NCBI GenBank assembly: GCA_016169945.1
Contig: JADLSH010000382.1
Span: 3,472,001 to 3,536,000, forward strand
Source of the DNA: Trachythela sp. YZ-2020
Taxonomy: Eukaryota; Cnidaria; Anthozoa; Malacalcyonacea; Clavulariidae
Length of the DNA: 64,000 bases
Direction of reading: 5' to 3'
Shown here piece after piece: positions 10,701 to 52,615 of the stretch. Position numbers and translations under genes: made by a program. The notes beneath the pieces were generated by a model. It was not told where the DNA came from. It saw nothing but the letters and a program-made list of their open reading frames with translations, and ran no database searches. Position 1 is the first letter of the stretch; each line of letters begins with the position of its first letter.

Positions 10701-12148
10701 ATACACCATCACCAACATTAGTCAGTCGTGGGGGACGAACATGTTGTGTACCAAATTGTAATAACAACAGCAGACGTAGGCCAGACCTGTCTTACCACAA
10801 GATCCCACAGGAACCAACATTAAGAAAAAAATGGATCAAATTATTGAAAATGAAAGGTTTCTGTAATCCAGGCTCGAACCACTATGTATGTTCAGCTCAT
10901 TTTCCAGGAGGTAAAAAAACTTATGAGAATAACATTCCATCAATTCTAACTTCGGATATACATCCAGCCCCCAAACGAAGAAATATTTTACGTATAAGCT
11001 CCATTGGAGATGAAGCTGGAGGTGGTAAGGAAGAATCTGACACAAACAGTTTATCAGACAGTCCAGTAAATATAGCGTGTAACCAGTTTACAGAGTGTAA
11101 CCAGGTAGATAACATTGAGGGTCTTAAAGAACAGCTTCAGGTGCTTCAAACAAAGTATGATAAATTGCAACAGAAGTACGATAAGAATATGGTAGACATG
11201 CAACAAAAACTGTTCAGAATAGAAAGATTTATTGGTAGTGATCATGATTTTAGATTTTATACTCGTTTCCCAGATTATGGTACTTTTAAAATATTTTTCA
11301 ATTACTTATCACCAGCATGCAATCATCTGCTTTACTATGATGGTTCTACAACCACTGTCATAACATCAGAAACACAGAAGAAACGAGACAAAGCAAGGTC
11401 TTTATCTCCAGAACAAGAACTGTTCATGGTTCTTGTCAGACTACGTTGTGGTCTACTTCTTGAAGACTTAGCCCACAGGTTTGATCTATCACCCAGCCAT
11501 GTTTCCCGCATCTATATCACATGGATAACTTTTCTTAACCAACAGCTTAGACTTTTACCAATTTGGCCAACACGCCAGTCTGTTGACGACAATATGCCTG
11601 AATGTTTCAAAGCAACATTTCCAAAAACAAGGGTCATTATCGATTGCACAGAGATCTATCTTGAAACCCCATCCTCTTGTAGAAGCCAATCAGCCACTTT
11701 TTCAAGTTACAAAAACACTAATACTGCCAAAAGATTACTAGGTATTTCTCCCAATGGTTTCCCAAGTTTTGTGTCAAACCTTTATGCAGGCAGAACAAGT
11801 GATAAGAAAATAACAAGTGATTGTGGAATACTGAATCTCTTAGAGCCAGGTGATCAAATTATGGCCGACCGGGGATTTGATATTGAAGACATTATGCCAG
11901 CAGGGGTAACTCTCAATATCCCTGCTTTCCTAGATGGGAGAGATCAGCTTAGCAAGGAAGAGGAAATCATGACCCGAAAGATAGCCTCTGTTAGGGTACA
12001 TGTTGAAAGGGTAAATGCGAGAATAAAGAGCTTCAGGATTTTGCACCACGTTTTCCCACTCAAGTCAGTTGAGCAACTTGAGCAAATATGGACAATTTGT
12101 TCATATATTAGTTTATTTATGCCACCATTAATTATTGAGAAACAGTGA
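10640..12148 (+). CDS. THAP-domain DDE transposase, intact
   Basis: The predicted 502-residue protein would cut and join the element's own ends in the nucleus. A THAP zinc domain at about residues 31-112 has the C2CH ligands C36, C40, C84 and H87 and would bind the inverted repeats. A coiled coil follows at about 156-195, suggesting dimerisation. A helix-turn-helix (LSPEQELFMVLVRLR..., about 255-300) leads into a DDE_Tnp_4-type catalytic domain with D335 (IIDCTE), D410 (MADRGFD) and E456 (HVERVNARIK). No stop or frameshift interrupts it. The ATG lies inside the inverted repeat and the same start is mirrored in the opposite gene. PIF/Harbinger is the nearest alternative family, but the paired YqaJ gene favours ISL2EU. 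Confidence 0.9.
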   Translation: MDEAKPQTMNEETPQLDCSGNTPSPTLVSRGGRTCCVPNCNNNSRRRPDLSYHKIPQEPTLRKKWIKLLKMKGFCNPGSNHYVCSAHFPGGKKTYENNIPSILTSDIHPAPKRRNILRISSIGDEAGGGKEESDTNSLSDSPVNIACNQFTECNQVDNIEGLKEQLQVLQTKYDKLQQKYDKNMVDMQQKLFRIERFIGSDHDFRFYTRFPDYGTFKIFFNYLSPACNHLLYYDGSTTTVITSETQKKRDKARSLSPEQELFMVLVRLRCGLLLEDLAHRFDLSPSHVSRIYITWITFLNQQLRLLPIWPTRQSVDDNMPECFKATFPKTRVIIDCTEIYLETPSSCRSQSATFSSYKNTNTAKRLLGISPNGFPSFVSNLYAGRTSDKKITSDCGILNLLEPGDQIMADRGFDIEDIMPAGVTLNIPAFLDGRDQLSKEEEIMTRKIASVRVHVERVNARIKSFRILHHVFPLKSVEQLEQIWTICSYISLFMPPLIIEKQ

Positions 12149-14141: not shown

Positions 14142-14667
14142 TTAATGCTCCAATTCGGTTAGTTAATATTTAAAACAATTCAAAGACAATAAAGTACACA
14201 CAATGTTGTGGGAGAAGGGTTGTTGGGGAGAAATGCTCCGATTATACTTTAAACTGAGGCCAAAGTGTCACCCCACAGACTCATTGTTTAAACTAATTAA
14301 AGTCCTCAGGGGATAATGGTCCCCATGTTGGACTCTAGTGCAATTGACGTCCTCAGGGGGTATTGGTCCCCATGTTGGACTGGTGACGTCCTCAGGGGGT
14401 ATTGGTCCCCATGTTGGACTGGTGACGTCCTCAGGGGGTATTGGTTCCCATGTTGGACTGGTGACGTCCTCAGGGGGTATTGGTCCCAATGTTGGACTGG
14501 TGACGTCCTCAGGGGGTATTGGTCCCCATGTTGGACTGGTGCAATTAATGTCCTCAGGGGGTAGTGGTCCCCATGTTGGACATGATCTACTTTTAATCTA
14601 ATATTTTAACTGTATAGTACATCGATTTGTGAGTCTATGGGGTTGAGGGTGACCTTTGGGAGCACTC
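14142..14667 (-). repeat. Split direct repeat B2 of the Ngaro element
   Basis: It matches 15283-15771 from TTAATGCTCCAATTCGG to GGGAGCACTC. It contains a 39-bp minisatellite with seven units. The stretch 14668-14952, between this repeat and A2, holds no gene; it contains T-rich tracts near 14870-14890. Confidence 0.85.
14300..14582. repeat. 39-bp minisatellite (7 units)
   Basis: Units read GACGTCCTCAGGGGGTATTG followed by GTCCCCATGTTGGACTGGT. As 39 is a multiple of three, all frames through the array stay open and give spurious repetitive open frames on both strands. The outer units are more diverged than the inner ones. Confidence 0.9.
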
Positions 14668-15282: not shown

Positions 15283-15771
15283 TTAATGCTCCAATTCGGT
15301 TAGTTAATATTTAAAACAATTCAGAGACAATAAAGTACACACAATGTTGTGGGAGAAGGGTTGTTGGGGAGAAATGCTCCGATTATACTTTAAACTGAGG
15401 CCAAAGTGTCACCCCACAGACTCATTGTTTAAACTAATTAATGTCCTCAGGGGGTATTGGTCCCCATGTTGGACTCTAGTGCAATTGACGTCCTCAGGGG
15501 GTATTGGTCCCCAAGTTGGACTGGTGACGTCCTCAGGGGGTATTGGTTCCCATGTTGGATTGGTGACGTCCTCAGGGGGTATTGGTCCCAATGTTGGACT
15601 GGTGACGTCCTCAGGGGGTATTGGTCCCCATGTTGGACTGGTGCAATTAATGTCCTCAGGGGGTAGTGGTCCCCATGTTGGACATGATCTACTTTAATCT
15701 AATATTTTAACTGTATAGTACATCGATTTGTGAGTCTATGGGGTTGAGGGTGACCTTTGGGAGCACTCCAT
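15283..15771 (-). repeat. Split direct repeat B1 of the Ngaro element
   Basis: Nearly identical to 14142-14667 but with six rather than seven 39-bp minisatellite units (about 15440-15680). Confidence 0.85.
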
Positions 15772-15858: not shown

Positions 15859-17117
15859 TCAAATCTTGGCCAGTGTGGCTGCAACATTCAATAGTGTTGA
15901 TGAAGGAGTTTGTATATATCGTTCATAACAATCCGAAGACCAGCGACCCAAAGTTTTAATGAGCCAGGAAGGTAATTTTGCTGCGGCTGCTGTAGTTGCA
16001 GCACCAATTCTGTAGCTATGACCCGCAAAGTTTGAGGCGTTGAACCCGGCTTGACTGAGCAATTTCCTTGTTTCGAGTGTTAGGGCCTGTTTTGTGAGTG
16101 GTTTACCCGCAACATTTACAAACAGAGGCCCTGATTTTGGCTGCCTTATGGCTAAATATTGTTTCATGGCCAACACTGGACAAAGGGGTGTGTTTGTTCC
16201 TCCAATACTTATTACATGTCCTACTCTGAAGTAGGGATGGGCGATACTGAACCAAAATATCGATACCAACGATACTTTCAAAGGTATCGACACTTTTCGA
16301 TACTCGCAAAAAGTATCGGTAATTCGATGCCACTTGAGCATGCGGTGTTTTTGGTCAGTATTTGTGATATACTTCATGATACAATGATACATGAGTTTTG
16401 TGACTTCAGACTTTCAGTTCAGAGCATTTTCGTTTCTGAAATAAGATTAAAGATTGTCTCGTTGTGATAAAAACTCATGAATTCTGGATATAGGTATGTA
16501 AAAAATTAGTGTAAAAATTAAAGTATCGGTATCGATTTTGGTATCGGTATCGATCAAAATTCTTGGTATCGGCCTGGTATCGTATCGAACACAAAAAAGC
16601 TGGTATCGCCCATCTCTACTCTGAAGGGGTCAGTTTTGGATTCTTTTATCCGTATGAACATGGCAGTAGTTGGTTGTAGGTCGTTGGAAAAAACAACATG
16701 AAAACCAAACCAAAAAATGCCAATGTTATGGCAGCCCAGAACATAATTGAGTTGAAACTTGTTGTGACAGGTATTGCTAGCATCATATGAAAAAGTTTTA
16801 AATGATGGATTGTTATTGGGAGACGCACTCTTATTTTATCTCCTTGGGAACGTTTTATACCTCGAAGAACCACATAGCATCTTTTGACAATCTAATGGAA
16901 AACCATTTCTTATATGAAAATGACGAACCGCTGCAAGATAGTTTTTAATAGATGTATGTTTGATGGTTTTGGCTAAATAGGCTGAAAATTGCACAAGCGT
17001 TTCTTCGTTTGCTGGTAGAAGATGTTTTCCTTCATGGGGCCGGTATAACTTAACGAAAGCAATGAACCGTTTCTCGCCAGCACTGTAAGTCTGTTTGGTT
17101 GAGGCGGCCACAGACAA
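15859..17117 (-). pseudogene. Tyrosine recombinase of the Ngaro element, broken
   Basis: The N-terminal SAM-like core-binding part is seen at 17117-16836 (TKQTYSAGEKRFIAF...). A frameshift moves the reading to 16873-16646, and a 387-bp MITE then separates the catalytic end (16223-15859). That end carries the HSYRIGAATTAAA box (His and Arg of HxxR), LGRWSSDCYERYI with the presumed nucleophilic tyrosine, and a typical C-terminus. The enzyme would integrate a circular DNA intermediate. Frameshift and insertion make it non-functional. Confidence 0.85.
16232..16618. mobile_element. hAT-like MITE in the recombinase gene
   Basis: A 387-bp insert starting TAGGGATGGGCGATAC and ending with the inverted copy GTATCGCCCATCTCTA. 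It is flanked by the 8-bp duplication CTCTGAAG at 16224-16231 and 16619-16626. The interior is rich in GGTATCGATA-type palindromes. The 8-bp duplication supports the hAT superfamily. Related but eroded copies begin near 30338 and 62389. Confidence 0.85.
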
Positions 17118-17143
17118 ATCAATATAATGTTCAATGTCAGTCT

Positions 17144-17737
17144 TTAGATTTCCGACAGAAGGACTGGAATTTTGTGAGGGTTGACATCTGCTTGAGGTGC
17201 TAGGAGTCGAAACCTTTGAAACTGGAAACGAGAAAGGGAATCAGCAAGCTCATTATACTTTCCGGGTATGTGTTTGGCCCGAATGTATATATTATACTTT
17301 AAAGTCAACAGTGTGAGGTGACGGAGGAGATCCATTACCCGGGAAATTCGCGATCGTTTGGAATTGATAATATTAACAACTGATTCATTGTCACAGTTCA
17401 GGATTATGCGTTTGTTTTGAAGGAATCCCCCCCATATGTGACATGCAACTATTATGGCAAACAATTCTTGCCAAGCTATGCTAATTTCAGGTTGTCCTAA
17501 TTGCTGATGGGGTTCCCATTTTCCTTGAAACCATTTCCCCCCAAAAATTCCCCCGTAACCCAAAACCCCTGATGCATCAGTATGGAGCTCGAGGCATTCA
17601 GAGTCTTCCCATGCAGAAGACAAGAAAAAACTGGCACCATTCCAGTTAACAATGAACTGTTTCCACATCTCAAGATCCTTAAAAAAGCCTGCACTAAGTT
17701 TTATGTGGTGGTGGGGCTGTTTTATATTTCTTGTCAA
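17144..17737 (-). pseudogene. RNase H domain of the Ngaro element
   Basis: This continues the RT polyprotein after a one-base frame break at 17738. RNase H signature residues are visible: LHTDASGVLGYGG (first Asp), WQELFAI (Glu), LNCDNESVV (Asp) and ELADSLSRF near the end. In DIRS/Ngaro elements this domain follows the RT and removes RNA from the hybrid. Confidence 0.8.
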
Positions 17738-17738
17738 T

Positions 17739-18953
17739 TCAAATCATTCTCTGTAAATAAGGGCGACCTGGTTGGATAACCTTGCATGCAAAATTTAGGG
17801 TACCTATAAGTGACTGAAGTTCTTTCAAGGTACATGACCGCCTTTTTTGAAATATGTCAAAAACAGCATGAAGGCGTTCAATTTTGTCATCGGGAAGACG
17901 TACTTCCATTCGAACACTGTCCAGGATAATACCCATAAACTCTAAAACAGTTGCTGGGCCTTGTGTTTTGCCAGGGGCTACAGGGATGTTAAGGTTCTTA
18001 AATGTAAGCATCTTGGCAGTTAAACTTTGTTGGCAAGTGCTGTCATGTGGGGGCAGGCGGGATGGTGGCTCCATAATAAGAAAATCATCCAAAATATGAC
18101 ATACAAATGAAATCATGCACCTAGTTTGTAGAATCCATTCAATAGCATCCGAAAGTTGGTTGAAAAGATACGGAGCACTTCGGAGGCCAAAAGGTAAAAC
18201 TTTGTCATAATAATATTTCCCATCCCAGTACATGCCGAGAAGTTCATAGTCGTCCGGGTGCACAGGAATGAGCCGACAGGCAGATTCAATGTCAGTTTTA
18301 GCCAAAAAACAGCCGTGGCCGAAATGCTTAATACCTTCAATTGCATTGTCAATTGTCACATACTGCAGACTGAAATCTTCCTTTGAAATTGATGCATTAA
18401 TACTTGTTGAGCCTGATTTTGGAAAAGAAAGATGAAAAATTGTTCGAAATTTTGCCGAATTCTTTTTTGGTACTAGACCAATAGTCTCGAACGGACCAGC
18501 CACACGGCCAAGAGAAATCTCATGTTCCAAATTTGATGTTACAATATCTGGATGGGTAAGGGCAGTAGGCAAATTTTTTGAAAATCTAGGTGCCCTCTGC
18601 CCTTCAAAACCTATTCGGGTTCCATCCCTTAAATTAGAACATAACTGTGAAACAAGCGTTGGTTCGGGATGTCCCTCTAGAAAATCTTCTAATTTAGTTA
18701 CAATAATAGGTGTTAGTGGTCTAGCTACATTGCTATCGTTTTTCTTGGTTGGAATGGCGCTGGCTGCCGGATGAATAAACTTTTTCTTTTGTTTTATGTG
18801 CTCGGGGTCTTTCATAATCTGGACAGTAAATTCCAGCATGCTCCCCGTCGCAGTGATTACACATGTGTCGGTACTTGCACTGGGCTCGTTTGCAAGCTCC
18901 GTTCCTATTGAAATCCCGGCAAATGCCCCCTCGTTCGGTCCCCGGGGTGGCAT
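17739..18953 (-). pseudogene. Reverse transcriptase domain of the Ngaro element
   Basis: About 404 residues are open. RT blocks include AKFRTIFHLSFPKSGS, the palm aspartate in FLAKTDIESACR, VLPFGLRSAPYLFNQ and HILDDFLIM, where LDD replaces the usual YxDD as often seen in DIRS-like RTs. The frame overlaps the 3' end of gag (18733-18953) and breaks into the RNase H frame at 17738. It belongs to a defective element although the RT frame itself has no stop. Confidence 0.85.
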
Positions 18954-19890
18954 ACTGTTGGGGTCCTTTATAGAAAAGAGGATATTCCTCTCTAAGGGTG
19001 GCTGGTGGTACTGTGAAGATCATCAACCATAATTTCTGATCTATTTCGGACCAGTTGAGGGATTGGTTAAGGGCAGCCTTCCGACGAAACATGATGTCGT
19101 AGATACACCAACCCACCCCTTTATGGCAATGAGCAGCATGGCGAATAATGCTCAGATACTGCAAAAACTCCTGGGCTCTGTCGGGGCATTCATGAGTAAA
19201 CACACTCATGTATGTGGTGAAGGCGGTCGTCCACTTATCGATGTCCGTAATACTTGTGGTGGACTGAGTGGACGGCTTAACTTTAATGATGGAGTTTTCG
19301 AGCGTTAACATAACAGGCTGTTCCTCTACTGTACTAAATAAATTCTTTGGCAAAAGTTTAGACAGTTCGAAAAACTCACCCGACTGGATATTCTTCACAT
19401 ATGATGCCGGTACGTCGTGGAAAGACTGTCCATATGGAAGACGGTTGGTAACAGGAACTCAGGAAGACTCGGTACGGAGGAATGCGGCGCTTCGGGCTCG
19501 AACGTTTGGAACATTGACGTCGAGATTGATGTGGTGTTGTTTATCGACGAAGGCTCAGTTCTTAATTGTTGTGGCTCGTTCGTAGGGACTGGCAAAGGCG
19601 CACTTGCCATGGCTTGTACAGCAGCACGAGCGGCGTTTGTGGCGATAGCACCGATTGTTCAACCGTTTTCGCGTGGCACAGATGTTGTCTCGAGTACTAT
19701 TTGCTCGTTGTTGCTCGCGATCTCGACAATCGTCTCGGCTTCTGTAGCGGTATTGTTCGACGAAGGCGTTGAAGCATGTTGTTTCAGTCTCGCGATCAAT
19801 GTGTTTCGACGGCCGCGGTCAGACAGTCCTTTGTCTAGGCATTATTGTCGAAGCTCGTTCACCGATGGCTGAATTGCATTCTCCGCGCGT
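18733..19890 (-). pseudogene. Gag-like protein with SAP-like start and zinc motifs
   Basis: The main frame (19398-18733, 221 residues) ends with a CCCH-type motif (CRDFNRNGACKRAQCKYRH) and CNHCDGEH, suggesting nucleic-acid binding as in DIRS/Ngaro gag. Upstream, 19610-19395 is open in a shifted frame. Further upstream (about 19890-19612) the same reading carries a SAP-like motif (GLSDRGRRNTLIARL) broken by a TAA and a TGA. At least one frameshift and two stops are present. The SAP call rests on motif likeness only. Confidence 0.65.
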
Positions 19891-36619: not shown

Positions 36620-38080
36620 AACTGCAGGCGTCGTTAATCAGCCGAGATCTGTTTGGACTAAACGGAGTTCAAAACGTTATTAATCAGAAAGCACTCAGAA
36701 GGTGTGTGTGTGTGTGGGGGGGGGGGTGGGCGGAAGTTAACCAATGATCCAGTTGGTCGCAAAATAAGTGCAGTCGCGGTCTCAAAATTTTGCATTGCTA
36801 AATTGGACGCATTATGCCAGGCAATACCGCTATGCGGGACCGGCTAAATAATTTGAGAGACCGACTTCAATCATTGCATTATTGGCAATTCCCAACACGA
36901 GTTATTTAAATTGCAGTTACTTGAATATGTCCACATAAAGTTTGCCGAAATCCTGTTTCGGTCTTTGTTGCATATCACATTATCACTCATATATAGTCTT
37001 AAGGTTGCACTTTATGAGTGTATTTTCCTCGTCTTCAACTATTGGAGTATTGCAATGATTTTTGTCTTAGAAATTTGAGACAGGAGGCAAAAACTGACTA
37101 CTTTGAAATAGAACCATATTGCCACAACTGCTATAATCTACATATTAACTACTTTATGGCAAAACGTATTGTACAGGCAGCTAAACTTATTTTTATCCGG
37201 AAAAACTATGTTGTTTTTGCAATATAGTTCGAATTGTTGACGTATCTTTCTGCAGATTTCCACGTACAAATTCGAGAATAAAATGTTTGTTCAGAACGCA
37301 GGAAATCGCGTCTCCGAGGTCCTAGATTTCCTTCCCAGGGTGTCCTACTGCATCAGTCGTTCTATTCTGATCGATCTGCCCAGTATCTGCTGAATGAGTT
37401 CAGTAAAAATATGAAACGTAACTTATCTATAAGTGAATATTATGTGCATTGAATTGTGTTGCTATTCAAGTTATTGCAGCAGCACGCAGAATTTATCGAC
37501 ATTTCGGATTAATATAATTCGGTCGGGTTAAAAGTCGGCCTGGATTTATGGGTCGGTCTAATTTCGAGACTTCATCCCCCCACATCCTAGCCAAAATCTA
37601 TATATATGCCTCTGAAAGTACTTGAGAATATGTCACGAGCTGTACTAATGAACTACATTCGAACGTTATTAAGATGGACTCGATACAAAATTTGGAATTT
37701 GAGAATTTCAGGTCTGCAGTGTTACAGTTTACAAATTTATAGTAGTTTAGAATACTTATATGTCATATTTTTAGGTTTTGTTCAGACGATATTGGGTTGT
37801 TCAAATATTTAAACTTATGGGATGTTGACTTGATTGTGTTGAAATGTTTCCTTCATATTCTGTTCATTTTCTTAACACTATAAATGGGCAATCCGAGCTC
37901 AACAGGGTTTGAAGTAAACGCAGAATGAACGTTGAATCATTTTATGAAATTTTCATTCGATCTTTAATTAAACAAATAACAATAATACTATTACTAAACT
38001 ATCGCCGCTAAGTTAAATATTAATTATAATATAAAGATAAACTCTTACTTCTGTGTATGAGGCTTCCAACGAACGTTTAT
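36620..38080. other. Non-coding stretch, no gene seen
   Basis: Short frames only. A GT/G-rich tract lies at about 36700-36730. Confidence 0.4.
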
Positions 38081-38199
38081 CAAAACTTGTCTGCAACAGG
38101 CTGTTTCATCTGTAAAAGAATCATCAGGCAGTTTACAAGTATCGAAAGAAATGACCGCTTATATGCTTCCTGCCGGGGCGTGGGGGTGTGTGTGGGAGA
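38081..38199. repeat. Inverted arm of the Penelope-like element (left)
   Basis: Reverse complement of 40035-40154. On the minus strand it contains CTGC-CTGATGA ... GAAACAGCCTGTT-GCAG, which can fold like a minimal hammerhead. Confidence 0.8.
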
Positions 38200-38533
38200 C
38201 AATGTGTGCATGCATGGCTTTGTTTGCGTTGTTTACGCGAAATTTGTTACGATGACGACATCGTGAAATTATTTCAGCTCTTTTGTTGAGTAAACAATCC
38301 TTGTTTTTTTCTTTCAAAATACAAAATTTTTCTTCTAAACATAAATTGCATCGTTTTGATCCTCCCGTATACGAAATAGAATGTTTTAAAATTTGCCAAT
38401 TAATACTGAAATCCTTATTGTTTTCTTTCAATGTCCAAATATATTTCGAAAGTTCCGTATCATTTGCATGCTTTTTATGCTGAAAAGATTTAGTGTGGTT
38501 GGCCAATCGCTCTTTGAATGTGGTTGCAGTCAT
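38159..38533 (-). pseudogene. GIY-YIG endonuclease end of the Penelope-like element
   Basis: YIGMTATTFKERLANHTKSF with catalytic-type Tyr and Arg, HANDTELSKYIWTLK, and CLEEKFCILKEKN with the conserved Glu resemble the PLE GIY-YIG domain. Its first residues (YIG) lie where this frame overlaps the upstream RT frame (38490), so a frameshift separates them. It runs past the element core into the inverted arm. Confidence 0.75.
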
Positions 38534-40047
38534 GCCAATGTAATTTTTGATCGTACATGTTTGTGTTGCTTACTGTGACTGTTGCTTTGTATACTATGTC
38601 CCTAGTCATGCATTGTTTTCGAAGCGGGCAAATGGTGTTTTTTCTACTACTGCAATTGGTAGTGTCCCTCTCCTGTGGCTTGTTATTTCTAGATATGCGT
38701 GCATTGTGTTTAGTGATTACTGACTTAATATTGTTCATGCAGCTATAGCTTACTTTAACTGTATTTCTGTTAAAAATTTTATGTAGGTTGTGGTGCGGTG
38801 GAAAATGCTTGTCAATTAGACTAAGGAAATTACGTCCCATGTTTGTGCTAACACTCTTGCTAAATGGTGGGTTGAACCAAATGATGTTGCGTTGCCTATT
38901 CCTGCGTTGTTTTTGCGGCGTGTGCTGAGTGTAGCTAAGTTCATGATTAAAGTTGCTATGCCTAAGTGCGTTCTGATATATGGGTGCAGATTCCTGAAAA
39001 GTTTGCTCATCTGATGAAAGAAGTGCGATGCGCTTGTTAATTGATGCAGGTAGTTGCCTTGTGATGCTCGGTGGGTGATTAGAGTGCATATTTATGTATA
39101 GTGGATCGTCATTGGGCTTCCTATAGGGCCTATGTTTTCCATTGTTAAGGTCGAAAGTTACATCTAAAAAGTTTACAATGCGTAAATTTGATTCGGCGGT
39201 AATTTTTAGGTCAAACTGCTCGAAAATTTTGTGGAGATCTTTTCTTGTTTTGTCTGCTAAACGTGCTGATTTACTTTTTATAATAGCCAAACCGTCATCT
39301 CTATATAGGCCGATGCTTTCTTTGCCAAATTTCTTACTCAGGTGGTTTAAAATGAAAAGGCCTACTAACTCACAAATTTCCGCGCCGTCGAAACTGCCCA
39401 TGCTAACGTCAAACAAACTATGGCTATCTTTTTTTATCCATGAAATTCCGGTATTGAAAAGGAGAGATTTTCTAGCGTGTTTTATTATTGAAATATCGTT
39501 TTCAGGTATAGTAGCCAAATTTGAAGCCCAAGAGAAAGCTTGGCCCAATAATTTTTCAGAAATAGATGGGTAGAAATCGACAATGTCAAACGAAATAAAA
39601 CTGTGTCTGTCCTTATCTTTTATATTGCCAAACCACTGAATAACTTGTTTTGTATTCCTCCAAATTGGAATTAATTTTGTCCAAAATAACTTTGCTTATT
39701 TTTCCGGATTCGCTTTTAGCGGGATTAATTAATCGGCATTTTGGATTGTTTTCGAAATTTTCTTTGTGATCTTTTAAAGATATAAATGCTTCGCGTTTTT
39801 TCATTTTTTCAATTCTGTCGCCGATTCCTAAATTGTTCGAAATGTTTTTTAGTTCTGAATCAATTTCATCTATAGTGTCCTCGGATCCATGCTTATATGT
39901 TTTTGTGATGTTGTCATGTAAGAGCTTGTTGTATGTGTCGAGCGAGGTTTCATAAATATTCCTAGTTTTGTCTGCAAAAATGAAAATGTTGGGAGACGAA
40001 TTGATTTTCTTTAGATCGTTAGTCAAAGATTTCTGTCTCCCACACAC
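38490..40047 (-). pseudogene. Penelope-like reverse transcriptase
   Basis: The first frame (40047-39613) has CRLINPAKSESGKISKVILD, an RT finger motif of PLEs. After a frame break near 39610 the sequence continues through FDIVDFYPSIS (palm Asp) into 39548-38490, with IGLYRDDGLAII (catalytic YRDD), then the thumb and a Cys-rich linker (CPLRKQCMTRDIVYKA) leading to the GIY-YIG domain. The N-terminus is absent. The family is well recognised; this copy is broken. Confidence 0.8.
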
Positions 40048-40154
40048 ACCCCCACGCCCCGGCAGGAAGCATATAAGCGGTCATTTCTTTCGATACTTGT
40101 AAACTGCCTGATGATTCTTTTACAGATGAAACAGCCTGTTGCAGACAAGTTTTG
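40035..40154. repeat. Inverted arm of the Penelope-like element (right)
   Basis: Reverse complement of 38081-38199. It may be the start of a second, truncated copy in opposite orientation. Confidence 0.8.
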
Positions 40155-40262
40155 AGGTAAGCGAAAATCTATAATTTGCTCTAACTATATGTTGTCGAGC
40201 ACTCTTTGCGTTTCGTAGACCTAAACCTACACGTATATATATATATATATATATAGCTAAAT

Positions 40263-40306
40263 CTGCAGACATGCATGTTTCGCCGTTCAACGGCTCGTCA
40301 GTGCAG
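40263..40306 (-). ncRNA. Type I hammerhead ribozyme, copy 1
   Basis: Read on the minus strand: helix I CTGCA/TGCAG, core CTGACGA, helix II GCCG/CGGC with a 5-nt loop, GAAA, a very short helix III in the palindrome ACATGCATGT, then C as cleavage nucleotide (GTC). All invariant core positions match. Expected cleavage is between 40268 and 40267. Palindromic minimal helix III suggests action as a dimer. Confidence 0.9.
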
Positions 40307-40568
40307 CTTGTAACGCAGTCTAGATGCGAGTGACTTCGTATTTATACACCATACTCTTGCCCTCACCAAGCGCATGTGGTACAATACTCAGACACATGCG
40401 CATCCAGACATGCGTGAAGTGTCTTGGGGCCAGAGTGCTCAAACGACCACAAGGGAAGTGAGCTTTTGCATTATAGCTTATTAGCCACCAATTAACCTCA
40501 CAGAGTGCTCAACAACACAAGTGAAGGAGCATATATAGCTAAATATATATATATATATATAGTCAAAT

Positions 40569-40612
40569 CTGCAGACATGCATGTTTCGCCGTTCAACGGC
40601 TCGTCAGTGCAG
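40569..40612 (-). ncRNA. Type I hammerhead ribozyme, copy 2
   Basis: Identical core and helices to copy 1. Cleavage is expected between 40574 and 40573 on the minus strand, releasing units of array length. Confidence 0.9.
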
Positions 40613-40850
40613 CTTGTAACGCAGTCTAGATGCGAGTGACTTCGTATTTATACACCATACTCTTGCCCTCACCAAGCGCATGTGGTACAATACTCAGACA
40701 CATGCGCATCCAGACATGCGTGAAGTGTCTTGGGGCCAGAGTGCTCAAACGACCACAAGGGAAGTGAGCTTTTGCATTATAGCTTAGAGCCACCAATTAA
40801 CCTCACAGAGTGCTCAACAACACAAAGTGAAGGAGCATATATAGTCAAAT

Positions 40851-40894
40851 CTGCAGACATGCATGTTTCGCCGTTCAACGGCTCGTCAGTGCAG
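40851..40894 (-). ncRNA. Type I hammerhead ribozyme, copy 3
   Basis: Identical core and helices to copy 1, 282 bp from copy 2. Confidence 0.9.
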
Positions 40895-41132
40895 CTTGTA
40901 ACGCAGTCTAGATGCGAGTGACTTCGTATTTATACACCATACTCTTGCCCTCACCAAGCGCATGTGGTACAATACTCAGACACATGCGCATCCAGACATA
41001 CGTGAAGTGTCTTGGGGCCAGAGTGCTCAAACGACCACAAAGGAAGTGAGCTTTTGCATTGTAGCTTAGAGCCACCAATTAACGTCACAGAGTGCTCAAC
41101 AACACAAAGTGAAGGAGCATATATAGTCAAAT

Positions 41133-41176
41133 CTGCAGACATGCATGTTTCGCCGTTCAACGGCTCGTCAGTGCAG
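41133..41176 (-). ncRNA. Type I hammerhead ribozyme, copy 4
   Basis: Identical core and helices to copy 1, 282 bp from copy 3. Its unit is cut short at a GAAAGATATAT palindrome near 41285-41310. Confidence 0.9.
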
Positions 41177-41299
41177 CTTGTAACGCAGTCTAGATGCGAG
41201 TGACTTCGTATTTATACACCATACTCTTGCTCTCACCAAGCGCATGTGGTACAATACTCAGACACATGCGCATCCAGACATGCGTGAAAGATATATATA

Positions 41300-41557
41300 T
41301 ATATCTTTCACTCAACTCAGGTTAGGCGAGAATCCGGTTAGCTTTTACAGACTCACAACACTAACAACAGTTCGTTATACTTTACAGTTCAGAAAAATGT
41401 CAGAAAAATGACGTAAATGTCAATTAAATATATTGTTTGTTTGAAATGTTAATTTCGAGTTTATATATAAATGTTAGGGTTGAGCAGCGTCTGCGGAGCG
41501 CGTAACAAACTTTATACTGGCTAAAATTACTTATTGTGTATGCGTATTTTCCTTTAT

Positions 41558-42234: not shown

Positions 42235-45200
42235 AGGGGGGATGCTACCTGAAAATTCATGTCGCGAACACATTGTATACTAATGACTGTATTTTATTAT
42301 GGTTTCACTTATATGCAACATGTTATACATCATTTTAAAGCTCATAACATGCTCTACACAAATAGCAATACAGATGCCTTATAAGACCAAACCATAATTG
42401 TAAAAAAAAACAAGGAAAGGCAAAATAGCTATTTTCTGCCGAACCATCTTTGAATGCTATCTAGTGAAAAACTAAACATCAGAAAGTGTTTATTTTAACT
42501 AGATAAGTAGAATACATTCCAGGCAACAGATTAATGAATGCTTTTGGTGCTACACCATATATTTTGGTCAAAACGACAGATATTTCAAATTTTATGATTG
42601 GGCAAAAAGGATTCATTAATCTATGGACAGCTACCTAAAGAACAATCTCTGAAAAAATTAGCAGCATTGGTCAAATAGTTTTTGAGTTATGAGAATTTAA
42701 GTAATAGTCGCTAACCGAAATCTTGTCTCTGAGAAAACGGCTAATAAAGTTAGTACAGTGAATGTCACCGATATTCTTATGAATAGATACAATGTACCTG
42801 ACCAAAATCAACACATAACAATGTAGGAATGCAACAGTCACTTTCTTTGACTTCCACTGACCAATTGAGCTAATGGAGCATCATCACTGTCATCAGAATC
42901 GTTGTTATGAACAAGCCAAGCTAAAGGATAATTGTCTTCATCGTCAGATGATGATGATGAAGCTTCAAAGTCAAGTGGATCCACTTCATTAAACTTTCCA
43001 CTGGCATAGGATGATTCCCCTTGGTTTGCTGCAAGCTTGGCTTGTCTTCTTTTCCTCCTTCTTTCCTTTTATTTCATCTGCGCACTTGTAACCGAGCTCG
43101 ACATCCTCTTCTTGTCTTTTGCTAAACACCCCTCAAAAGTGAACTCACCACCTGGAATGTTAGCTGCTTCCATGACATCCTGCCTTGAGGCAGCACCATA
43201 ATTAAAATAAAGAATAGCAGACATCACAGCAATCTTCACAACTTGAGGTCCTTTATAACGGTGTTTAGGAGCACGGTTCCAAACAAGGCTGTTGAGGCTT
43301 TCGTTCACATTCTGTGAATACCCAGGAAGACAGCGTAGCAACAGAGAATACTCACTGAGGCACTGGAACTCAGGTAGCAGGAAATCTAAAAAAACAGCAT
43401 CCAAATGGTGATCTTTCCTTTGGAAGGTACCATCTCTTCTGTAGGAGCACCAGCTATCTGGCCCTGGTGGACAGTATTGGTGTCTCTTCTTGTCATCTGG
43501 AAGTTCGCAAGTGTGATAGAGAACTGCCAGTATAGCCTTTTGCATTATTTTTTTTGTTTTCTCTGTTCCTGTGGAGTTAATTTTCCTGGCTTTACATTAG
43601 CCCTGATGGCATTTCCATAATAAGTTTGGAGCTTGTCTAATGTTTTGTCTGTCAGTCGGTGTTTGCTGCCTTTGACTGATTTCCCATCCTTCAGCTTTGG
43701 TTGTTTCTTCCTAAGTTCCCGCAAGTGTGTCCCCATTCTTTTTTGCACATGGCCAATACAATCCAATTTTGAAACCCTTGCACACTCTGCCATTCCGCTT
43801 TCATGGTTTTGTTTCCAAATCTCATACTCCTTGGACGCGCGCCATTTCTTGTACTCTGCTGACCGCTTGTCCATCTTCTCCCATTTCTCACACTTATCGC
43901 AACAACCATAGGTATCCCAAATACGTCCATAAGCTTTGCTATCACCATCGCTGATCATAGATTTATAATGTAAATTAGTTTCCTTAGATCTGTCCCAAAT
44001 CTTCTTAGCTATGGAGCACTCCATTGACCCACTTGATCCAGTGTGAGTTTTGGTGCATTTGTCTTTATGTCCCTGGTACCACATGTCATACTCGGGAGAA
44101 TCTTCACCAAGATCCTCCTTTGTTGATTCACATGCTTTGCATATCTTTGACTCTAAATCAAAGTCAAGTACTTCACCAGTTTCAACCGATACCACGAAAC
44201 CAACACCATAATTAGCTGTGTACCCCCTTTTCGACCAAGTACCATCAAAGCTCACCGCAATCTCTGCGACATCAGTTTCATCAGAACAATAACGTGAAAA
44301 TACTTTGTCTCTTGCCTGCTGTAATTGTTCATCAACAACTTTCTTGTGGGCATCATACAGAGCTGAAACATGGTTGTCCCATGCTTTGTGTTGGCAAGGG
44401 GTAGGCATATTGAAAATATCAGACATCACTGACATGGCCTCTCGTCCTACACCCATTTCCATTGCAGAGTAAACCATCCGCCTATTTGTATCCATGGAAT
44501 TTTGAGATTTCCACACTTGGCTTTCACACCCAGAGGTTTGAAGCTCGATCTTGACCTCGCATTTAGAGCACTGGACATTGATTACAGACTAGAGCCATAT
44601 CTACGTACCTCGTCCTCGCTAAGTTGTAAGTCTCCACCAAGTTGACAATTATGCAAAGGTTGAAACGCTCTTACCAAATTTGATAGCTCAATCAGTCTAT
44701 AGCTGTATGCCCCATCAAAATCTTGGTTTCTTTTGCTTTTCTGATCCGTTATCTTTCGAACAGAAGCCGTCTGAGGCACTGGAGTAGACGCACATGGAGA
44801 AGAATTTGATGATTTTGATTTGGCGGCATCCCATTGATTTTGGCCACGAAAACGCCGCTTTTTCGATACTTTTGGCATTGTAAAGAAATATAATCTCGAG
44901 GAGACTATTTTCCGCTACCAAAAAGCAACAAGATAAAAATAATACAGACAAAATCTAAATCGTTGATGTGTTTTCACAAGTGTTTCACCTCAAATGGCTA
45001 TGTTTTCGAACAGGAAGGAAAAATGTGTTGTAGAATAGCTATGTGACCAGGCCTTAACTTGTTACCAGTCCTTCAGGTTGTCGATTTACACAATCAGCAA
45101 AAAAAAATTCCAAACCCCCACAAACAACGAAGAAACAAGGCATGAAAAACAATAAACACAAACCCGTTTCCATGGCAACGTGAAATATTGTAGCCTACTC

Positions 45201-45345: not shown

Positions 45346-45584
45346 GTAGACTGTACCTCAAATGCGAGTTTGCAGATTATATAAATGTTAAGGAAGGTAA
45401 ATGTGGTAGCAGTTTAAAGGCTATATTATTTCAAATACAACTATAGCCTTATGAACTATAGGGGCAATGTCAATAAACTTGTGCAAGTCGATGGCTGGAT
45501 ATATATAGTATACTGCATGTATTCGTATGGAATGCCATAGCTGTCTTAGGTGGTCATCTTTTATTACATGGTGACCATTCATAA

Positions 45585-45950
45585 ATATATGCGGTGCGAA
45601 CGTCATTATATGCTGTCAATTTGCCATTATATTCGGTCAATTCGCCATTATATGCGGTGCAAACTTCATTATATGCTGTCAATTTGCCATTATATGCGGT
45701 GCAAACTTCATTATATGCTGTCAATTTGCCATTATATGCGGTGCAAACTTCATTATGTGCAAACTTCATTATGTGCAACTTCGTTATGTGCAACTTCGTT
45801 ATGTGCAAACTTCATTATGTGCAACTTCGTTATGTGCAACTTCATTATGTGCAACTTCGTTATATGCAACTTCGTTATGTGCAAACTACTTATGTGCAAA
45901 CTTCATTATATGCAACTTCGTTATGTGCAAACTTCATTTCCGCTTCGCAA
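45585..45950. repeat. Satellite inside the left inverted repeat
   Basis: Tandem units of 12-18 bp in two flavours: CATTATATGCTGTCAATTTGC / GCGGTGCAAACTT nearer the end, and CTTCGTTATGTGCAA inwards. The array is mirrored at 52198-52575. It gives long artificial open frames on both strands. Repeated units are likely transposase-binding sites (inference). Confidence 0.8.
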
Positions 45951-47984
45951 CTTCCGTTCTCGCTTTCCCGCCATATGAACAAGTACATCCGGGAGAACAA
46001 AAGAGTAAACACATACAATATCAATTGACATAATTGTTGATAAAATATTTGCGCTTATTGTAATATTTTGGAAAATACAAATGGATAAAATTTTAGAAGA
46101 CGCTGGTCTTTCTACTTTACGTGAAAGGTTTCAGGAAGAAAGAATCGATCCTGAAATAGTTATTGCTATGTCGGATGCGGAATTGGCTCGGCTTGGCGTT
46201 CAAACTATTGGCGATCGGATTCGTCTACGTTCAGCATGTCGAGGAAAGAATGGTCCACCAAATGTTACTCCTGAAAACAATACTTCTTCATCAAGTGCAA
46301 CCCCATCATCTAGTTCAACTGCCGCGACAGTCGCATCCGAACGTGCAAGATTGTTTAATCCCCGACATTCAAGAGTGGCTAGCAGAAAGAGGAAAGCTTC
46401 TCAAGGTTCTGGTAGAACGTGGACGGCTCAAATTTTTTGCTTGGCTGATCGCCAACAAACCACCATACCAAATGCAAGCACGAAGCAAGTTCTACACAAT
46501 GCAGGTTTGGGGTTGAAAAAGATCAGGTTTTTACTCGAAGATGACGAAACCCAGGTTGCTCAAAAAATCATGTCAGACGAAGTTGTGGAAGATGAGACAC
46601 TGGGCTTCCCACAACTTAAAGTTGGGGGTGGGTTCGAGTTGCTACAGTGCCAATCAAACTGCAGGAAACTAACCATGATTACATGTCGTTGGGCTGTTAA
46701 AAATCTAAATTAAAAGCAAACCTTGGTACGCAGTCCAAGATTTATGTTCGACCAATCCAGCAGAACCTCTCTACGAAGCCTCTTAAGCCAGAAAAAGTAA
46801 TCCAGGTGAAGCAGACATGTAATGGGTGCCTAGAAGAATTCCTTATGCACGAATTAAGAAATCATTTATATACATGCACAGCAGGACTATTTGACTCAAA
46901 TTCTGAATCAGAAGCAAATGATGGTCATGGTATTCAAACTGGTTATGATACATTGCAGCAACACCAACTGAGTAATGAAGTCATTGTAAACAATGTCAGT
47001 ACTGTAATTATTACACAAGATAATGATGAGTCGGAGATAACCATCAGTACTCCATTGGTTACAGAGAATGGGGAAAATACTCATGTACATGACCCTATTG
47101 TTAATTACATTGACATTGAAAGCACAGAGAATAACAATGAAATCGAGACAGGAATGGTACAAAATATGGATCAAATTGAAGAAACTTCAATGGATATCAA
47201 TTCAGTTATTGATGAAATTTCTGACTACTGCCAGGAAAACAAAGTTTCCAGCACTAAAGAAGTTGTACGTCTGATGCAATCTAAGCTTGTGAGGGGGAGA
47301 AGCCTGGAAATAGAAAGTGAAGACACGTGTCCAGGAGGTGCAGCAAACTACATCCTAGTAGATCGCTACAACATTTTGGAAACAGGCATGGAAGAGATAG
47401 CTGGTTTACATGATCCTTTTCTCACCCTGGATGTCCAGTTTTATGGAGAGGTAAAATGATTTTCATTTAACTATATTAAATTTTTGGTATGTTTCTATAC
47501 TGACTTTAACCATATAATTAACTTGTCAGCAAGCCCAAGACTACGGGGGCCCGCGAAAAGAATTTTTTCGCTTAATCTTACGGGAAATCAAAGAAAAGTA
47601 TTTCGATCATGGACTTCGTGACCTCTTGGCAGAAGAGTACATTACCATTGGAGTGATAATGGGTATATGATTTTGTCATTTTTATCTTTTATAAGAACCT
47701 TTTTCAAGTCCTTACAGTATAACAAAGTCTACAATATTAATGTTAATTTTGTAGGACTAAGTATTTTACAGAATGGAAAGCTTCCACAATTTCTGTCAGA
47801 CAAGATCATTCATGACATATTTATGGCAGAGGAGAAATCACAATGTGTGAAATATCTAATTCAAGGGTTTGAAAAATTGGGCATATTTCAGGTAGATTTT
47901 AATCCTATATACATATATTATTCAGCTCTCAACCGTCAGTTTTCCGTGACCGACCAGGTAGATTTTAATCCTATATACATATAT

Positions 47985-48452
47985 TATTCAGCTCACTCCC
48001 CGTCGGGGCTTTTCCGTGACCGATTACATGAAGTATTTCGCGTACTTAGCCTACACTGTATATTTTTACAACAATTGTGATATTACTTTCCTAATCTATA
48101 TATCCTAACCCACCCAGTCAGCTTTCCCTGTGGGAGGAAACAGGAGTGCCCGGAGAAAACCCACAACTTTCGGCAGAGCGCTGACTTACTCTTTTCACAT
48201 GAGTAGAGTCCCCAGTGAGAATCAGGGACGTAGCCAGAACTTTCAAAGGGGGGGAGTCCTGTGGGGATTAAAGGTAGCTGTGGCTATATGTGGGGCATAA
48301 TTCCTGGTTTTGCAGTAAGTATTAGCACTAAATATTACCAAAGGGGGGGAGCCGCGGCTCCCTCGGCTCCCCCCCTGGCTACGTCCCTGGTGAGAATCGA
48401 ACCCACAACTCAGAGGTGAAAGGCGCTTGCTCTGACGACTGCGCCACCGTCA
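47985..48452 (-). mobile_element. SINE (reverse) in a HECT-gene intron
   Basis: Minus-strand tRNA-like head GACGGTGGCGCAGTCGTCAG with B box GGGTTCGATTCTCA and the shared body. It lies between exons at 47891 and 48508. A 66-bp partial duplication (GGTAGATTTTAATCC...) occurs at 47890-47996 next to its tail. The hAT MITE at 48223-48389 split it. Confidence 0.75.
48223..48389. mobile_element. 167-bp hAT MITE inside the SINE
   Basis: Ends CAGGGACGTAGCCAG and CTGGCTACGTCCCTG are perfect inverted repeats. The 8-bp target duplication GTGAGAAT is at 48215-48222 and 48390-48397. No coding capacity. Confidence 0.9.
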
Positions 48453-48699
48453 TTAATATTTAATATAACAAGACTTTTCAATAATAAATTTTTATTCTTA
48501 ATCCTAGATCTGTTGCAAATTTCCATCAGTGCAAGAGGTTTTTAAGCCCATCCCATTGAGTGTGTTGACATTACGGAAGATCAATTCACTTCTTGTTCCA
48601 GAATTCAGTCCTGTGGGTTCAAACAGAAGAACTTATGAAACTAAAGTGTATACGCTATTTTGCAAGTATATGCGAGAAGTGGCTTGTAAGTTTTTTTTC

Positions 48700-49185
48700 A
48701 TTCACTTCCTTTTCCCCCGAGCCAACGCGTTAGCCCGGGGCAAGGGTACTAATTCCGCTCGGCTATTTACACCCGGGAAAAGGCGAGCTAGCAGATTGCA
48801 AAGTTCATCAATGATTGCGGGCACCATGGGTGTCATGGGCAGTGAACTCTATTATAACTGGAATGATAACTGCAGGTAAAAGGCCCTATGATTGGTTGAA
48901 GACAAGATGGCGGAAATTGAAGGCTGTCTTGTAGGTATAAAACATGTGTGCTTTTCGCGTGGACTGTGTGGGAACTGAAAAATGAGCGAGGTTTCCCGTG
49001 GGTTTTCCGATCCATGTTTTTCAGTTTTTGCAAGAAAATGCTCATTTTTAGAACTGAAAAGCCTACCTAAACCTACCTTCAATTTCTTCCAGCTTGGCTT
49101 CAAAAATCAACCCCGAGTTATCGTTCCAGTTATAATAGAGTTCACTGGTCATGGTGGTCATCTCACTGATCTCAAAAACACGACA
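48700..49185. repeat. Dispersed repeat in a HECT-gene intron
   Basis: Begins near CCCCGAGCC and contains GGGTACTAATTCCGCTCGGC; it ends with GGTGGTCATCTCACTGATCT. Shorter copies are at about 61600-61770 (same strand) and 56060-56140 (reverse). No coding capacity is seen. Confidence 0.6.
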
Positions 49186-49567
49186 TGAGCCCTGCTTTCA
49201 GTCACAGAATACATACTAGACCAGAATTGTCATTCCTATGTGTTTTGGCTTGGGAAAAACGTCCGAAATTTTGTGCTGACGTGAAATACGCCGTCAAAAT
49301 GGGTACAAAGTGCCGTGTGAACCCCAGGATGGCGTAGAAATTGAGTCATATGACGGCAAATTTTTCATGGGTACAAAGTGCCGTGTGCACCCGTTATCTT
49401 TCTGATTCTGCGAGATGACAAAATCGTTCTTACCACTGGCTAATACTTGCATAAATGTGATGACACTTCCGTATGCTTCACACAGTTCCATGCCATTGCC
49501 ACCTGACAATGTTCTGTTTGACTTGTATGATGAGGCATATGCTAGTGTATATTTTGGAAACGTTTGA

Positions 49568-50778
49568 TAAGCACAAGGATCATAGAGGATGGAAAATGAC
49601 TGGTGTTCAAATTTGAGATGAATTATAAACATCATGCTTCAACATCTACAGTACAATAGTACATCCCTAAGTTGTTACATTTTAAATTGGTTTGCACTGT
49701 TGATATTATTTTGCACTACATAGGCGGTCAAGTCCTAGTACACTAATACAGTTTGTGTGTACATTCGTTACAATATGAAATATGATGTACTTAAGGTGAC
49801 TCACTACAGTTACAGTATTTTCAAAAATGGAAAATTAACGATTTGCGCCCGATATTTTGGACAGTTATTACTTGTTGGAAAACAAAGCGTGTTTGAGAAT
49901 TGTGTTTGAGTTTTATAAAGTAACATCGGAAGAGTTCTAATTTTTAACAAAAGTCACGTAACTGCCGTTGCCATGGCGACAATAGAGAGTTTGGCAACCG
50001 AGAACGGCAACGGCAAAAATATAATTACTTATGTTGTTTTATTTGAGCCAAAGTATACGTTAGTTACCACACTTAATTTGCCTCTTTAAGTATCCCTCTT
50101 TCTCTTAAGACTTAAACAGCTCTTAAATAGCAAGTAGTCGGCGAATTCACATCGAATACGCCATATAACACCGAACGAATTAACTGTTGCCGTGGTCATG
50201 CACCGTGAAAATGATGCAAATAACGTAGCAGTTTCAACAACTACGGCATTTTACAACGCTTAAGACCATGTAATTTACATTCGCCTTTGTCTTTGAGGAT
50301 CAATGCTATTGTTGACGAGCACGTTGTCGTTGTCGTTCTCGGTTGCCAAACTCTCTATTGACGTTTCAATATGGCGTTTCAATATATAAACTTCTCTATT
50401 TCGTTTAATTATCTTGAAGATTCAAAAAGAATGTTATCACGCATAATCACGTTTAACGAATTTGGAAAAATTTTAGTCGACAAAATTTTTTTTAAATCAT
50501 CAAATAAATTCAATATATTATGAGAAAGCACTTTATGAAATAAAAAATGGGGGTCACCGAACTCGTTTTCGAGTAAAGTTACTTTAAAGACGAAATATCC
50601 GCCAATTTGGGTATTGCTTACATCGAAGGGTTCTCACATAACACATGCGTAGAAAGGTCCTGACCGCCTCTTTTGAAGACTGCATGTTATCATTGGTTTA
50701 TAACTTTTTATAAAGTTGTTTTTAAGGGTTAACAGAAAATACATTACCTTTCACCACGTTCCTAACTACTTTACTAGT
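49568..50778. other. Intergenic centre of the HECT transposon
   Basis: Between the convergent gene ends. It holds an inverted repeat: CAATAGAGAGTTTGGCAACC at about 49980 and its complement near 50342-50361, possibly a small MITE. No gene is seen. Confidence 0.5.
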
Positions 50779-52141
50779 CTAATGCTCGCTTTCTGAATGC
50801 CTTTCAATGATTTCAAGGTTCGTCATATATTGATCGATCCAATAGTTACTTGGATTTGGCGCAACTGCGTTAAGCTCAGTCAGGCATCTTTCATTGAATT
50901 CTACAACTGGTGGAGAAAAAATAGGCCTGCCTTCTTCATTTTCATCAGTTTCATCGTCGATATCACCTTCCACACCATATTGGTTCAAATCATGAAGAGG
51001 AATATCAAGACCGACTGGGTTTTTCGCTTGGCCAGCAATCCATAGGCGTAATGGGCTTGTTTTAGTTGTTCGCATTCTATGGTTTGCCCATGCTCTTTGC
51101 CAAATTTGAAGCTTATTATTTATTTCATGTAAGTATGTATGATGCAATGCAGCAATATGACTGATGTTAAGTGAATCAAGGAGGTTTTCATCTTCCAAGA
51201 AATAAAATAAGTGGTAAAAGAAACTAAGAACGCCCTGAAAAACATCTCTCCAAAGCCTCTCAATTCTTTGATTGTGAGTACTTCGGCCAGTGATAATACT
51301 TCCACGATCAGTTCCTCTTTTTTCAATCATGTAGTCGGCGATTCGAACATTTTCCAAGCCCTTGTCTGTTCTTACCCGACTTGGTAAACCATATTCATTC
51401 ACAGCAGCCAAGAAACAGTTAAGCAATGTATCAGCTTTATTGTTGTTGGTGCAAACAAGCGTCACTGGTAACCGGCTGAAACCGTCAATACCACCAACAA
51501 TTACAAAATTCCATCTCACTAGCTTATGGTTTGTATCAACATGCCACAAATGATTAGGACCTTTCACATTATATACTCGGCGTTGTAACCTCTTTTTTTT
51601 CTGTTTGCCACCCCCTGACTATCAACTCGGTGAATTGAATCACGCATGCGCGATCTCTGAACTTTGATACCTTTGCCAAGTAATAGCTGTTTTATCATGT
51701 TTTCTCCACAAAAAGGAAAGTCCTTGACAATTTTACTTACATTGATGTCTAACTGTTGATCGCTTATTTCCGAAAAGTCAAGTTTGCTAAGGTCATAGCT
51801 CCTCATGCGACGGTAAATCGTTGATTCAGATACGGACAACATCGTGGCTATTTCACTTATAAGAAAGTCTTCATCAAGAAGACTTCTTTTGGTATCTCGA
51901 ATTTCGGGTAGTCTCCATCTGTTCGCGTTTTTACTGGTTTCACAGAGCCATATTTTGTGCATTCCATTCGTAAAGCCATAATTTCACTCGATGTATTCAC
52001 TCCCAATTCACGGAATTCGTATAAAGACAGCATACAAACGATATCAGGCGTGACCTTTTGGTTTGAGAATCGTTGGGTCAGCGAACCAAGGCCAAGTTTC
52101 TCTAAAATATTCTTCATTTGAGATTGAAAATCCGGATCCAT
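50779..52141 (-). pseudogene. SAM-HTH-integrase-core transposase, frame broken
   Basis: The N-terminus (52141-51857) is a SAM-like domain (ILEKLGLGSLTQRFSNQKVT). After a frame break, 51962-51564 carries a helix-turn-helix (EIATMLSVSESTIYRRMRSY). A second frame break near 51566 leads to the rve-type catalytic core (51567-50779): D11 in WHVDTNH, D68 in VRTDKGLEN and E103 in NQRIERLWRDV form the DDE triad. It would mobilise the element. The core is 262 residues with an acidic tail. Convergent with the HECT gene, and its start lies just inside the right inverted repeat. The core without context could be annotated as a host integrase-domain gene, but the inverted repeats show it belongs to a transposon. 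Confidence 0.8.
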
Positions 52142-52197
52142 TTTGTATTATTGATAGTCAGATTTGCCGGCAAATATAAGTAAAAACAAAATACTAT

Positions 52198-52575
52198 TAT
52201 TTTGTACATAACGAAGTTTGCACATAACGAAGTTTGCACATAACGAAGTTGCATATAACGACGTTTGCACATAACGAAGTTGCATATAATGAAGTTGCAT
52301 ATAATGAAGTTTGTACATAACGAAGTTGCATATAACAAAGTTTGCACATAATGAAGTTTGCACATAACGAAGTTGGCATATAACGAAGTTTGCACATAAC
52401 GAAGTTGCATATAACGAAGTTGCACATAATGAAGTTTGCACCGCATATAATGGCAAATTGACAGCATATAATGAAGTTTGCACCGCATATAATGAAGTTT
52501 GCACCGCATATAATGGCGAATTGACCGAATATAATGGCAAATTGACAGCATATAATGACGTTCGCACCGCATATA
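52198..52575. repeat. Satellite inside the right inverted repeat
   Basis: Mirror image of 45585-45950, with the units TTGCACATAACGAAG and GCACCGCATATAATG. The order of unit types is inverted relative to the left end, as expected for terminal repeats, but copy numbers differ. Confidence 0.8.
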
Positions 52576-52615
52576 TTTATGAATGGTCACCATGTAATAA
52601 AAGATGACCAGCTAA

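Follow-up and report, generated by a model that had tools for sequence, protein, structure and literature searches.

Short tandem repeats that each carry a hammerhead motif lie close to a Penelope-like element (PLE) in the octocoral Trachythela sp., which raises the question of what these repeats are and whether the neighboring PLE is involved in their origin or movement. The window analyzed here is the whole 64-kb stretch of DNA that contains them. The array very probably represents a metazoan non-LTR retrozyme inserted in the genome. Retrozymes are small parasitic elements that are proposed to move by way of circular RNA. That the array is a new example of animal retrozymes, already known as a group, is well supported, while a special tie to the adjacent PLE is unsupported.

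The repeats contain a type I hammerhead of 44 nt on the minus strand, one complete copy per unit, and the four copies are letter-identical. In RNA letters, the motif consists of helix I (CUGCA/UGCAG), the core CUGACGA, helix II of 4 to 5 bp, GAA, helix III (ACA-UGCA-UGU), and then GUC, after which the RNA would be cut. Helix III is a 10-nt palindrome that is able to form 3 bp and a tetraloop but is weak. An A is bulged in helix I, in which loop 1 is not clear, and inspection by eye revealed no evident canonical contact between loops 1 and 2. A strict type I pattern (CTGANGA, helix II, GAA, a closed helix III from A to U, H17, and helix I) was scanned against both strands of the window. It matched exactly four times, always on the minus strand, with cores at 40295-40301, 40601-40607, 40883-40889, and 41165-41171, in agreement with the first-pass annotation, which had reported four minus-strand hammerheads with a complete core. 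Looser patterns, either without a requirement for helix III pairing and with a 4-bp helix II or limited to the core plus helix II, gave no match in the window beyond these four. One hundred windows simulated by a Markov model with matching dinucleotide content contained two matches in total, none with a comparably short helix III and short motif, and these simulations exclude a chance origin of the motifs.

No Rfam family reached its gathering threshold anywhere in the window, and the Hammerhead_1 search proposed in the first-pass annotation gave no accepted match. At relaxed thresholds, RAGATH-1-hammerhead matched all four motifs (22.6 bits, E = 0.74), Hammerhead_HH9 matched three of them (23.0 to 23.2 bits, E = 0.008 to 0.009), and Hammerhead_3 matched the one that Hammerhead_HH9 missed (19.2 bits, E = 0.78). 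The curated cutoffs of these families, at 48 to 56 bits, are far above the scores obtained; the relaxed table omits three lower-scoring matches of the same clan and has no Hammerhead_1 row. The short helix III may be the reason for the subthreshold scores. Scans with the motif pattern gave no match in viral contigs and none in phages, and two matches in bacterial genome contigs lacked helices I and II and look like chance. The collections searched for relatives of the 282-nt unit, which hold few eukaryotes, yielded none.

The motif, its fourfold repetition and spacing, an upstream box, and the ends of the array are observed directly in the DNA (Table 1). The units are direct tandem repeats. 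In plus-strand order, three full units of 306, 282, and 282 nt are followed by a fourth of only 170 nt (41119-41288), which amounts to about 3.6 units with sharp array boundaries. The extent proposed earlier, 40235-41290, agrees with ours to about 15 bases. Of the four tandem units that had been claimed, all four motifs are present, but the last unit is truncated. Measured between the cleavage-site residues (C17, at the cut positions in Table 1), the spacing is 282, 282, and 306 nt in the RNA sense, the same values as in the first-pass annotation. The longer spacing comes mainly from a 24-nt TA-rich insertion. The GC contents of the 282-, 282-, and 306-nt units are 0.472, 0.475, and 0.441. Pairs of units differ by 1 to 7 substitutions over 170 to 282 aligned bases (97.5 to 99.4% identity, gaps left out), and because the differences are so few, the array looks fairly young. 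Each of the three full units has stops in all six frames (two to five per round); the longest stop-free stretch is 86 codons in one frame of one unit, and it is 50 in the next unit. The units are apparently noncoding, and stops in every frame of three units disfavor a protein-coding circle.

Table 1. Coordinates of the array, its ribozymes and boxes, and the adjoining features
Feature	Position	Strand	Remark
Penelope-like element	38080-40033	minus	5'-truncated, frameshifted, outside array
Inverted copy of PLE 3' end	40034-40155	plus	122 nt, 100% identical to 38080-38201
Diverged inverted fragment of retrozyme unit	40169-40212	plus	~79% identical, just outside array
TA tract, RNA-3' end of array (insertion side)	40234-40255		22 nt
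Retrozyme array	40249-41288	minus	full units of 306, 282, and 282 nt, then a truncated one of 170 nt
Hammerhead motif 4	40263-40306	minus	predicted cut after C at 40268
TATAAATA box	40339-40346	minus	equal position in unit
TA tract inside 306-nt unit	40543-40560		part of 24-nt insertion
Hammerhead motif 3	40569-40612	minus	predicted cut after C at 40574
TATAAATA box	40645-40652	minus	equal position in unit
Hammerhead motif 2	40851-40894	minus	predicted cut after C at 40856
TATAAATA box	40927-40934	minus	equal position in unit
Hammerhead motif 1 (5'-most in RNA sense)	41133-41176	minus	predicted cut after C at 41138
TATAAATA box, truncated unit	41209-41216	minus	40 nt upstream of ribozyme 5' strand
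28-nt perfect palindrome, RNA-5' end of array	41284-41311		holds 14-nt TA tract 41291-41304

These features are those of metazoan non-LTR retrozymes, which are described as 170 to 400 nt long with less than 50% GC (PMC7229834) and for which we took tandem units of about 150 to 450 bp as the length criterion. The array has a type I hammerhead core in 4/4 copies, tandem units of 282, 282, and 306 nt, a GC content below 50%, and no gene-sized frame. The earlier description of retrozyme-like type I hammerheads that have a minimal, palindromic helix III and recur in tandem units of about 282 nt thus matches the published metazoan elements. Since the features match, minus-strand multimers would be predicted to yield 282-nt monomers. 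Retrozymes have been reported in stony corals, jellyfish, and anemones (PMC7229834); the word octocoral is absent from the main text of that report, and a literature search keyed on octocoral and coral found no paper on octocoral retrozymes.

Among known systems, the cnidarian non-LTR retrozymes (Acropora millepora, 220 to 245 bp; jellyfish; anemones) share the type I hammerhead, short tandem units, and low GC, and no coding gene is seen in them either (PMC7229834). The unit described here differs in its length of 282 nt and in that loop-loop contacts are not evident by eye; such tertiary contacts between loops 1 and 2 are canonical in metazoan retrozymes but mostly absent in mussel. Our unit is predicted to act as a dimer (see below), whereas cleavage in the monomeric form is reported for most type I hammerheads of invertebrates. 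The newt and axolotl hammerhead repeats, which cleave as dimers, are 330 to 350 bp long and likewise have a short helix III with a palindromic tetraloop (PMC7229834). Compared by description only, they have 1 to 2 bp in helix III, against a possible 3 bp here, and a very different host. Plant LTR retrozymes are also small hammerhead elements with a circular RNA intermediate, as our array would be, but they have type III hammerheads, units of 600 to 1,000 nt, and LTRs with a PBS and PPT, and they are likely mobilized by Gypsy elements.

The ends of the array suggest how it may have been inserted. TA tracts lie at both ends, and four of the six TA tracts of at least 12 nt in the window are within the array or no more than 300 nt away. 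At the RNA-5' end, the array breaks off within the unit at GTGAA and runs on into the 28-nt palindrome. These ends would fit a model in which an AT-rich nick primed reverse transcription at the TA stretch of the unit itself and microhomology brought it to an end. Target site duplications (TSDs) are inseparable from the tracts, the unit itself having a TA stretch; metazoan non-LTR retrozymes have TSDs longer than 4 bp when these are present, and 15-bp TSDs are reported for the Nematostella repeats (PMC4918200). A second, diverged piece of the unit lies inverted in the flank at 40169-40212. Its best local score, 39, was reached by none of 2,000 Markov flanks and none of 804 other pieces of the window, and its E value in a self-comparison of the window was 0.004. 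An earlier comparison with different scoring also ranked it above all other matches in the window, though at a weak E value of 0.05. The fragment is probably an older relative of the unit. A single event giving both the array and the fragment is unlikely, given ~79% identity for the fragment against 97.5 to 99.4% within the array.

Several other features were recorded in the window. The reading frame at 33959-35464 matches secretin-family seven-transmembrane proteins and has 159 homologues at an E value of 0.001 or better; in the 120 of these that are listed, the rows that name a species all name either Paramuricea clavata or Dendronephthya gigantea (both octocorals), most rows being nameless, and identity among the matches listed is 37 to 77% over the aligned part. 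The region 45546-52615 is an element of about 7 kb with inverted arms of tandem repeats, whose 194-nt tips are 87% complementary. It contains an rve/rva_4 integrase-type frame (50779-51618) and a weak SAM-domain match (46009-46713) and looks like an integrase-type DNA transposon. On the minus strand, 15859-19458 has consecutive reverse transcriptase (RT), RNase H, and phage-integrase-like segments, not all of which reach the Pfam cutoffs; it looks like a tyrosine-recombinase retroelement, which we take to be of the DIRS/Ngaro kind. An open frame of 502 codons at 10640-12148 (plus strand) has THAP and DDE_Tnp_4 domains and encodes a DNA transposase. A Mutator-like transposase match lies at 43545-44588 (minus strand), and the overlapping frame 43069-43596 may continue it. 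Two arrays with a common 39-nt unit, at 14345-14581 and 15486-15683, are about 1 kb apart.

The first-pass annotation had placed the array directly upstream of the neighboring PLE and had taken this position as a sign that the PLE machinery generated or mobilizes it. We recognized what we take to be RT and GIY-YIG motifs in this PLE. Its coding pieces lie in three frames, 82, 75, and 64% identical to a relative (P0003), and the alignment begins at P0003 residue 114, so that about the first 113 residues are missing; the copy is thus both broken and 5'-truncated. The element has 5,569 homologues at an E value of 0.001 or better. Pfam and NCBIfam scans of it gave nothing usable, and no solved structure matched it by sequence. 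A structural model of P0003 (mean pLDDT, 78; pTM, 0.55) had a telomerase RT as its best Foldseek match (E = 3e-8), with a TM-score of only 0.32. PLE RTs are akin to telomerase. The 3' end of the element is present as a perfect 122-nt inverted repeat at both of its outer ends. This inverted copy, and not the PLE 5' end, lies between element and array, 93 bp from the latter, so the array faces an inverted PLE tail and not a pLTR. Inverted ends of this type could come from priming and extension on both target strands, by analogy with an Anolis PLE for which such two-strand extension was demonstrated in vitro (PMC11167929). Neither strict nor relaxed scans found a hammerhead in the neighboring PLE, and no similarity was found between it and the retrozyme unit, although that copy lacks its 5' part and hence its pLTR. 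With a broken copy, an inverted tail, and neither a hammerhead nor unit-like sequence in the PLE, the inference of a helper from position falls. Mobilization by PLE machinery is a published general hypothesis for retrozymes (PMC7229834); at this locus, it is not supported by anything beyond the AT-rich insertion site.

The same observations bear on other ways to explain the array. The units could be tandem pLTRs of a PLE that has lost its coding part, the hammerhead then being the PLE's own. PLE pLTRs do carry tandem type I hammerheads, usually minimal ones (PMC7761336, PMC11167929), with possible dimeric action, and a PLE with its inverted tail 93 bp away is close by. However, PLE hammerheads are usually without helix III, whereas here a weak one of 3 bp and a tetraloop can form. 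There is no PLE coding sequence in or between the four units, and no frame with RT and GIY-YIG flanks them directly, while in the Anolis PLE the reading frame begins within the stretch that it shares with the hammerhead (PMC11167929). Together with the missing similarity to the neighboring PLE, as far as that 5'-truncated copy allows the comparison, these differences make a pLTR origin unlikely. It is very improbable that the neighboring copy itself generated or mobilizes the array. A preference for AT-rich sites is described for the PLE enzyme that was examined in vitro (PMC11167929), and the array, which lies close to the copy, ends in TA tracts; but the copy, broken into three frames, has no counterpart to roughly the first 113 residues of P0003, and it is its inverted 3' end that faces the array. 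Its nearness means little, because the window holds several other mobile elements.

The units might instead be inert satellite DNA, spread by unequal crossing-over and retaining an ancestral hammerhead without mobility. The tandem layout and the high identity among units are as expected of a satellite, and the amphibian members of the group were first described as satellite DNA (PMC7229834). Against this, there are only ~3.6 units with sharp bounds, and crossing-over alone could not give the diverged inverted piece next door. The four ribozymes are letter-identical while differences occur elsewhere in the units, although at most seven differences per pair are too few to prove selection. We give the satellite explanation a slightly slimmer chance than a pLTR origin. 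A retrozyme copy accounts best for the observations.

Each unit has its own candidate promoter. In 4/4 units, TATAAATA lies 40 nt upstream of the 5' strand of the ribozyme. The Markov chance of finding it is 0.0002 per 46-nt stretch, and that of a looser TATA consensus is 0.002, for a position that was picked after being seen; the TA stretch of the unit also fits the looser consensus. Transcription typically starts about 30 nt downstream of a TATA-type box. A start at this distance from TATAAATA would keep the whole ribozyme in the transcript.

To characterize how the ribozymes might fold, lone hammerheads were compared with a double hammerhead, in which the 10-nt palindromes of two neighbors pair together, in 36 tandem contexts (three neighboring pairs, four upstream lengths, and three downstream lengths). 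The energies come from a model that ignores tertiary contacts and core geometry. In 32 of the 36 contexts, the predicted energy of the double hammerhead was below that of a separate pair, and in 11 it equaled the minimum; none of the minimum-energy folds contained a complete lone hammerhead. Mean energies above the minimum were 1.7 kcal/mol for the double form, 8.3 for one lone hammerhead, and 11.5 for two. The four contexts without the preference all had 40 nt downstream and involved the pair spanning the 306-nt unit; for this pair, the double hammerhead was never the minimum (0/12). Pair probabilities, computed for a single context, averaged 0.17 for the double helix III and 0.003 for the lone one; the double form is thus predicted to be preferred over the lone form, yet not to be dominant.

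When single copies were folded alone as 68-nt pieces (n = 4), the minimum was never a hammerhead. In circles of 282, 282, and 306 nt, the complete lone hammerhead was 2.5 kcal/mol above the minimum in all three. The minimum folds of the circles contain helices I and II, although the 306-nt circle has an equally stable alternative that lacks helix I. Compared with 100 dinucleotide shuffles each, the circles were predicted to be more stable (z scores of -2.2, -3.0, and -3.5), with paired fractions of 0.60, 0.62, and 0.67 against shuffle means of 0.64, 0.64, and 0.65. These fractions fall below the more than 70% pairing stated for other metazoan retrozyme RNAs.

Published retrozymes provide the model for a cycle of transcription, cleavage, circularization, and rolling reverse transcription with a helper enzyme. 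A minus-strand multimer would arise from the promoter in each unit, at the TATAAATA box, or by read-through, and would be cut into monomers that a host RNA ligase would circularize. The circle would resist recutting because a lone hammerhead is not the favored fold. An autonomous element would supply the RT, which, with an AT-rich nick as its primer, would go around the circle several times; the resulting tandem cDNA would be inserted. We suggest only tentatively, as the less likely outcome, that the array represents an octocoral lineage with a TATA promoter in every unit, in which only multimers are cut, through the double hammerhead, and the circle is protected since the lone ribozyme cannot fold.

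For the study of such elements, this locus indicates that proximity to a PLE can be a poor guide to whether the PLE acts as a helper. A published puzzle is why the circular RNAs of metazoan retrozymes are not reopened by the hammerhead that they contain (PMC7229834). If our assignment is true, hammerhead retrozymes extend to octocorals; and if cutting is confined to dimers, this would explain, for this octocoral retrozyme family, how circles persist without being reopened.
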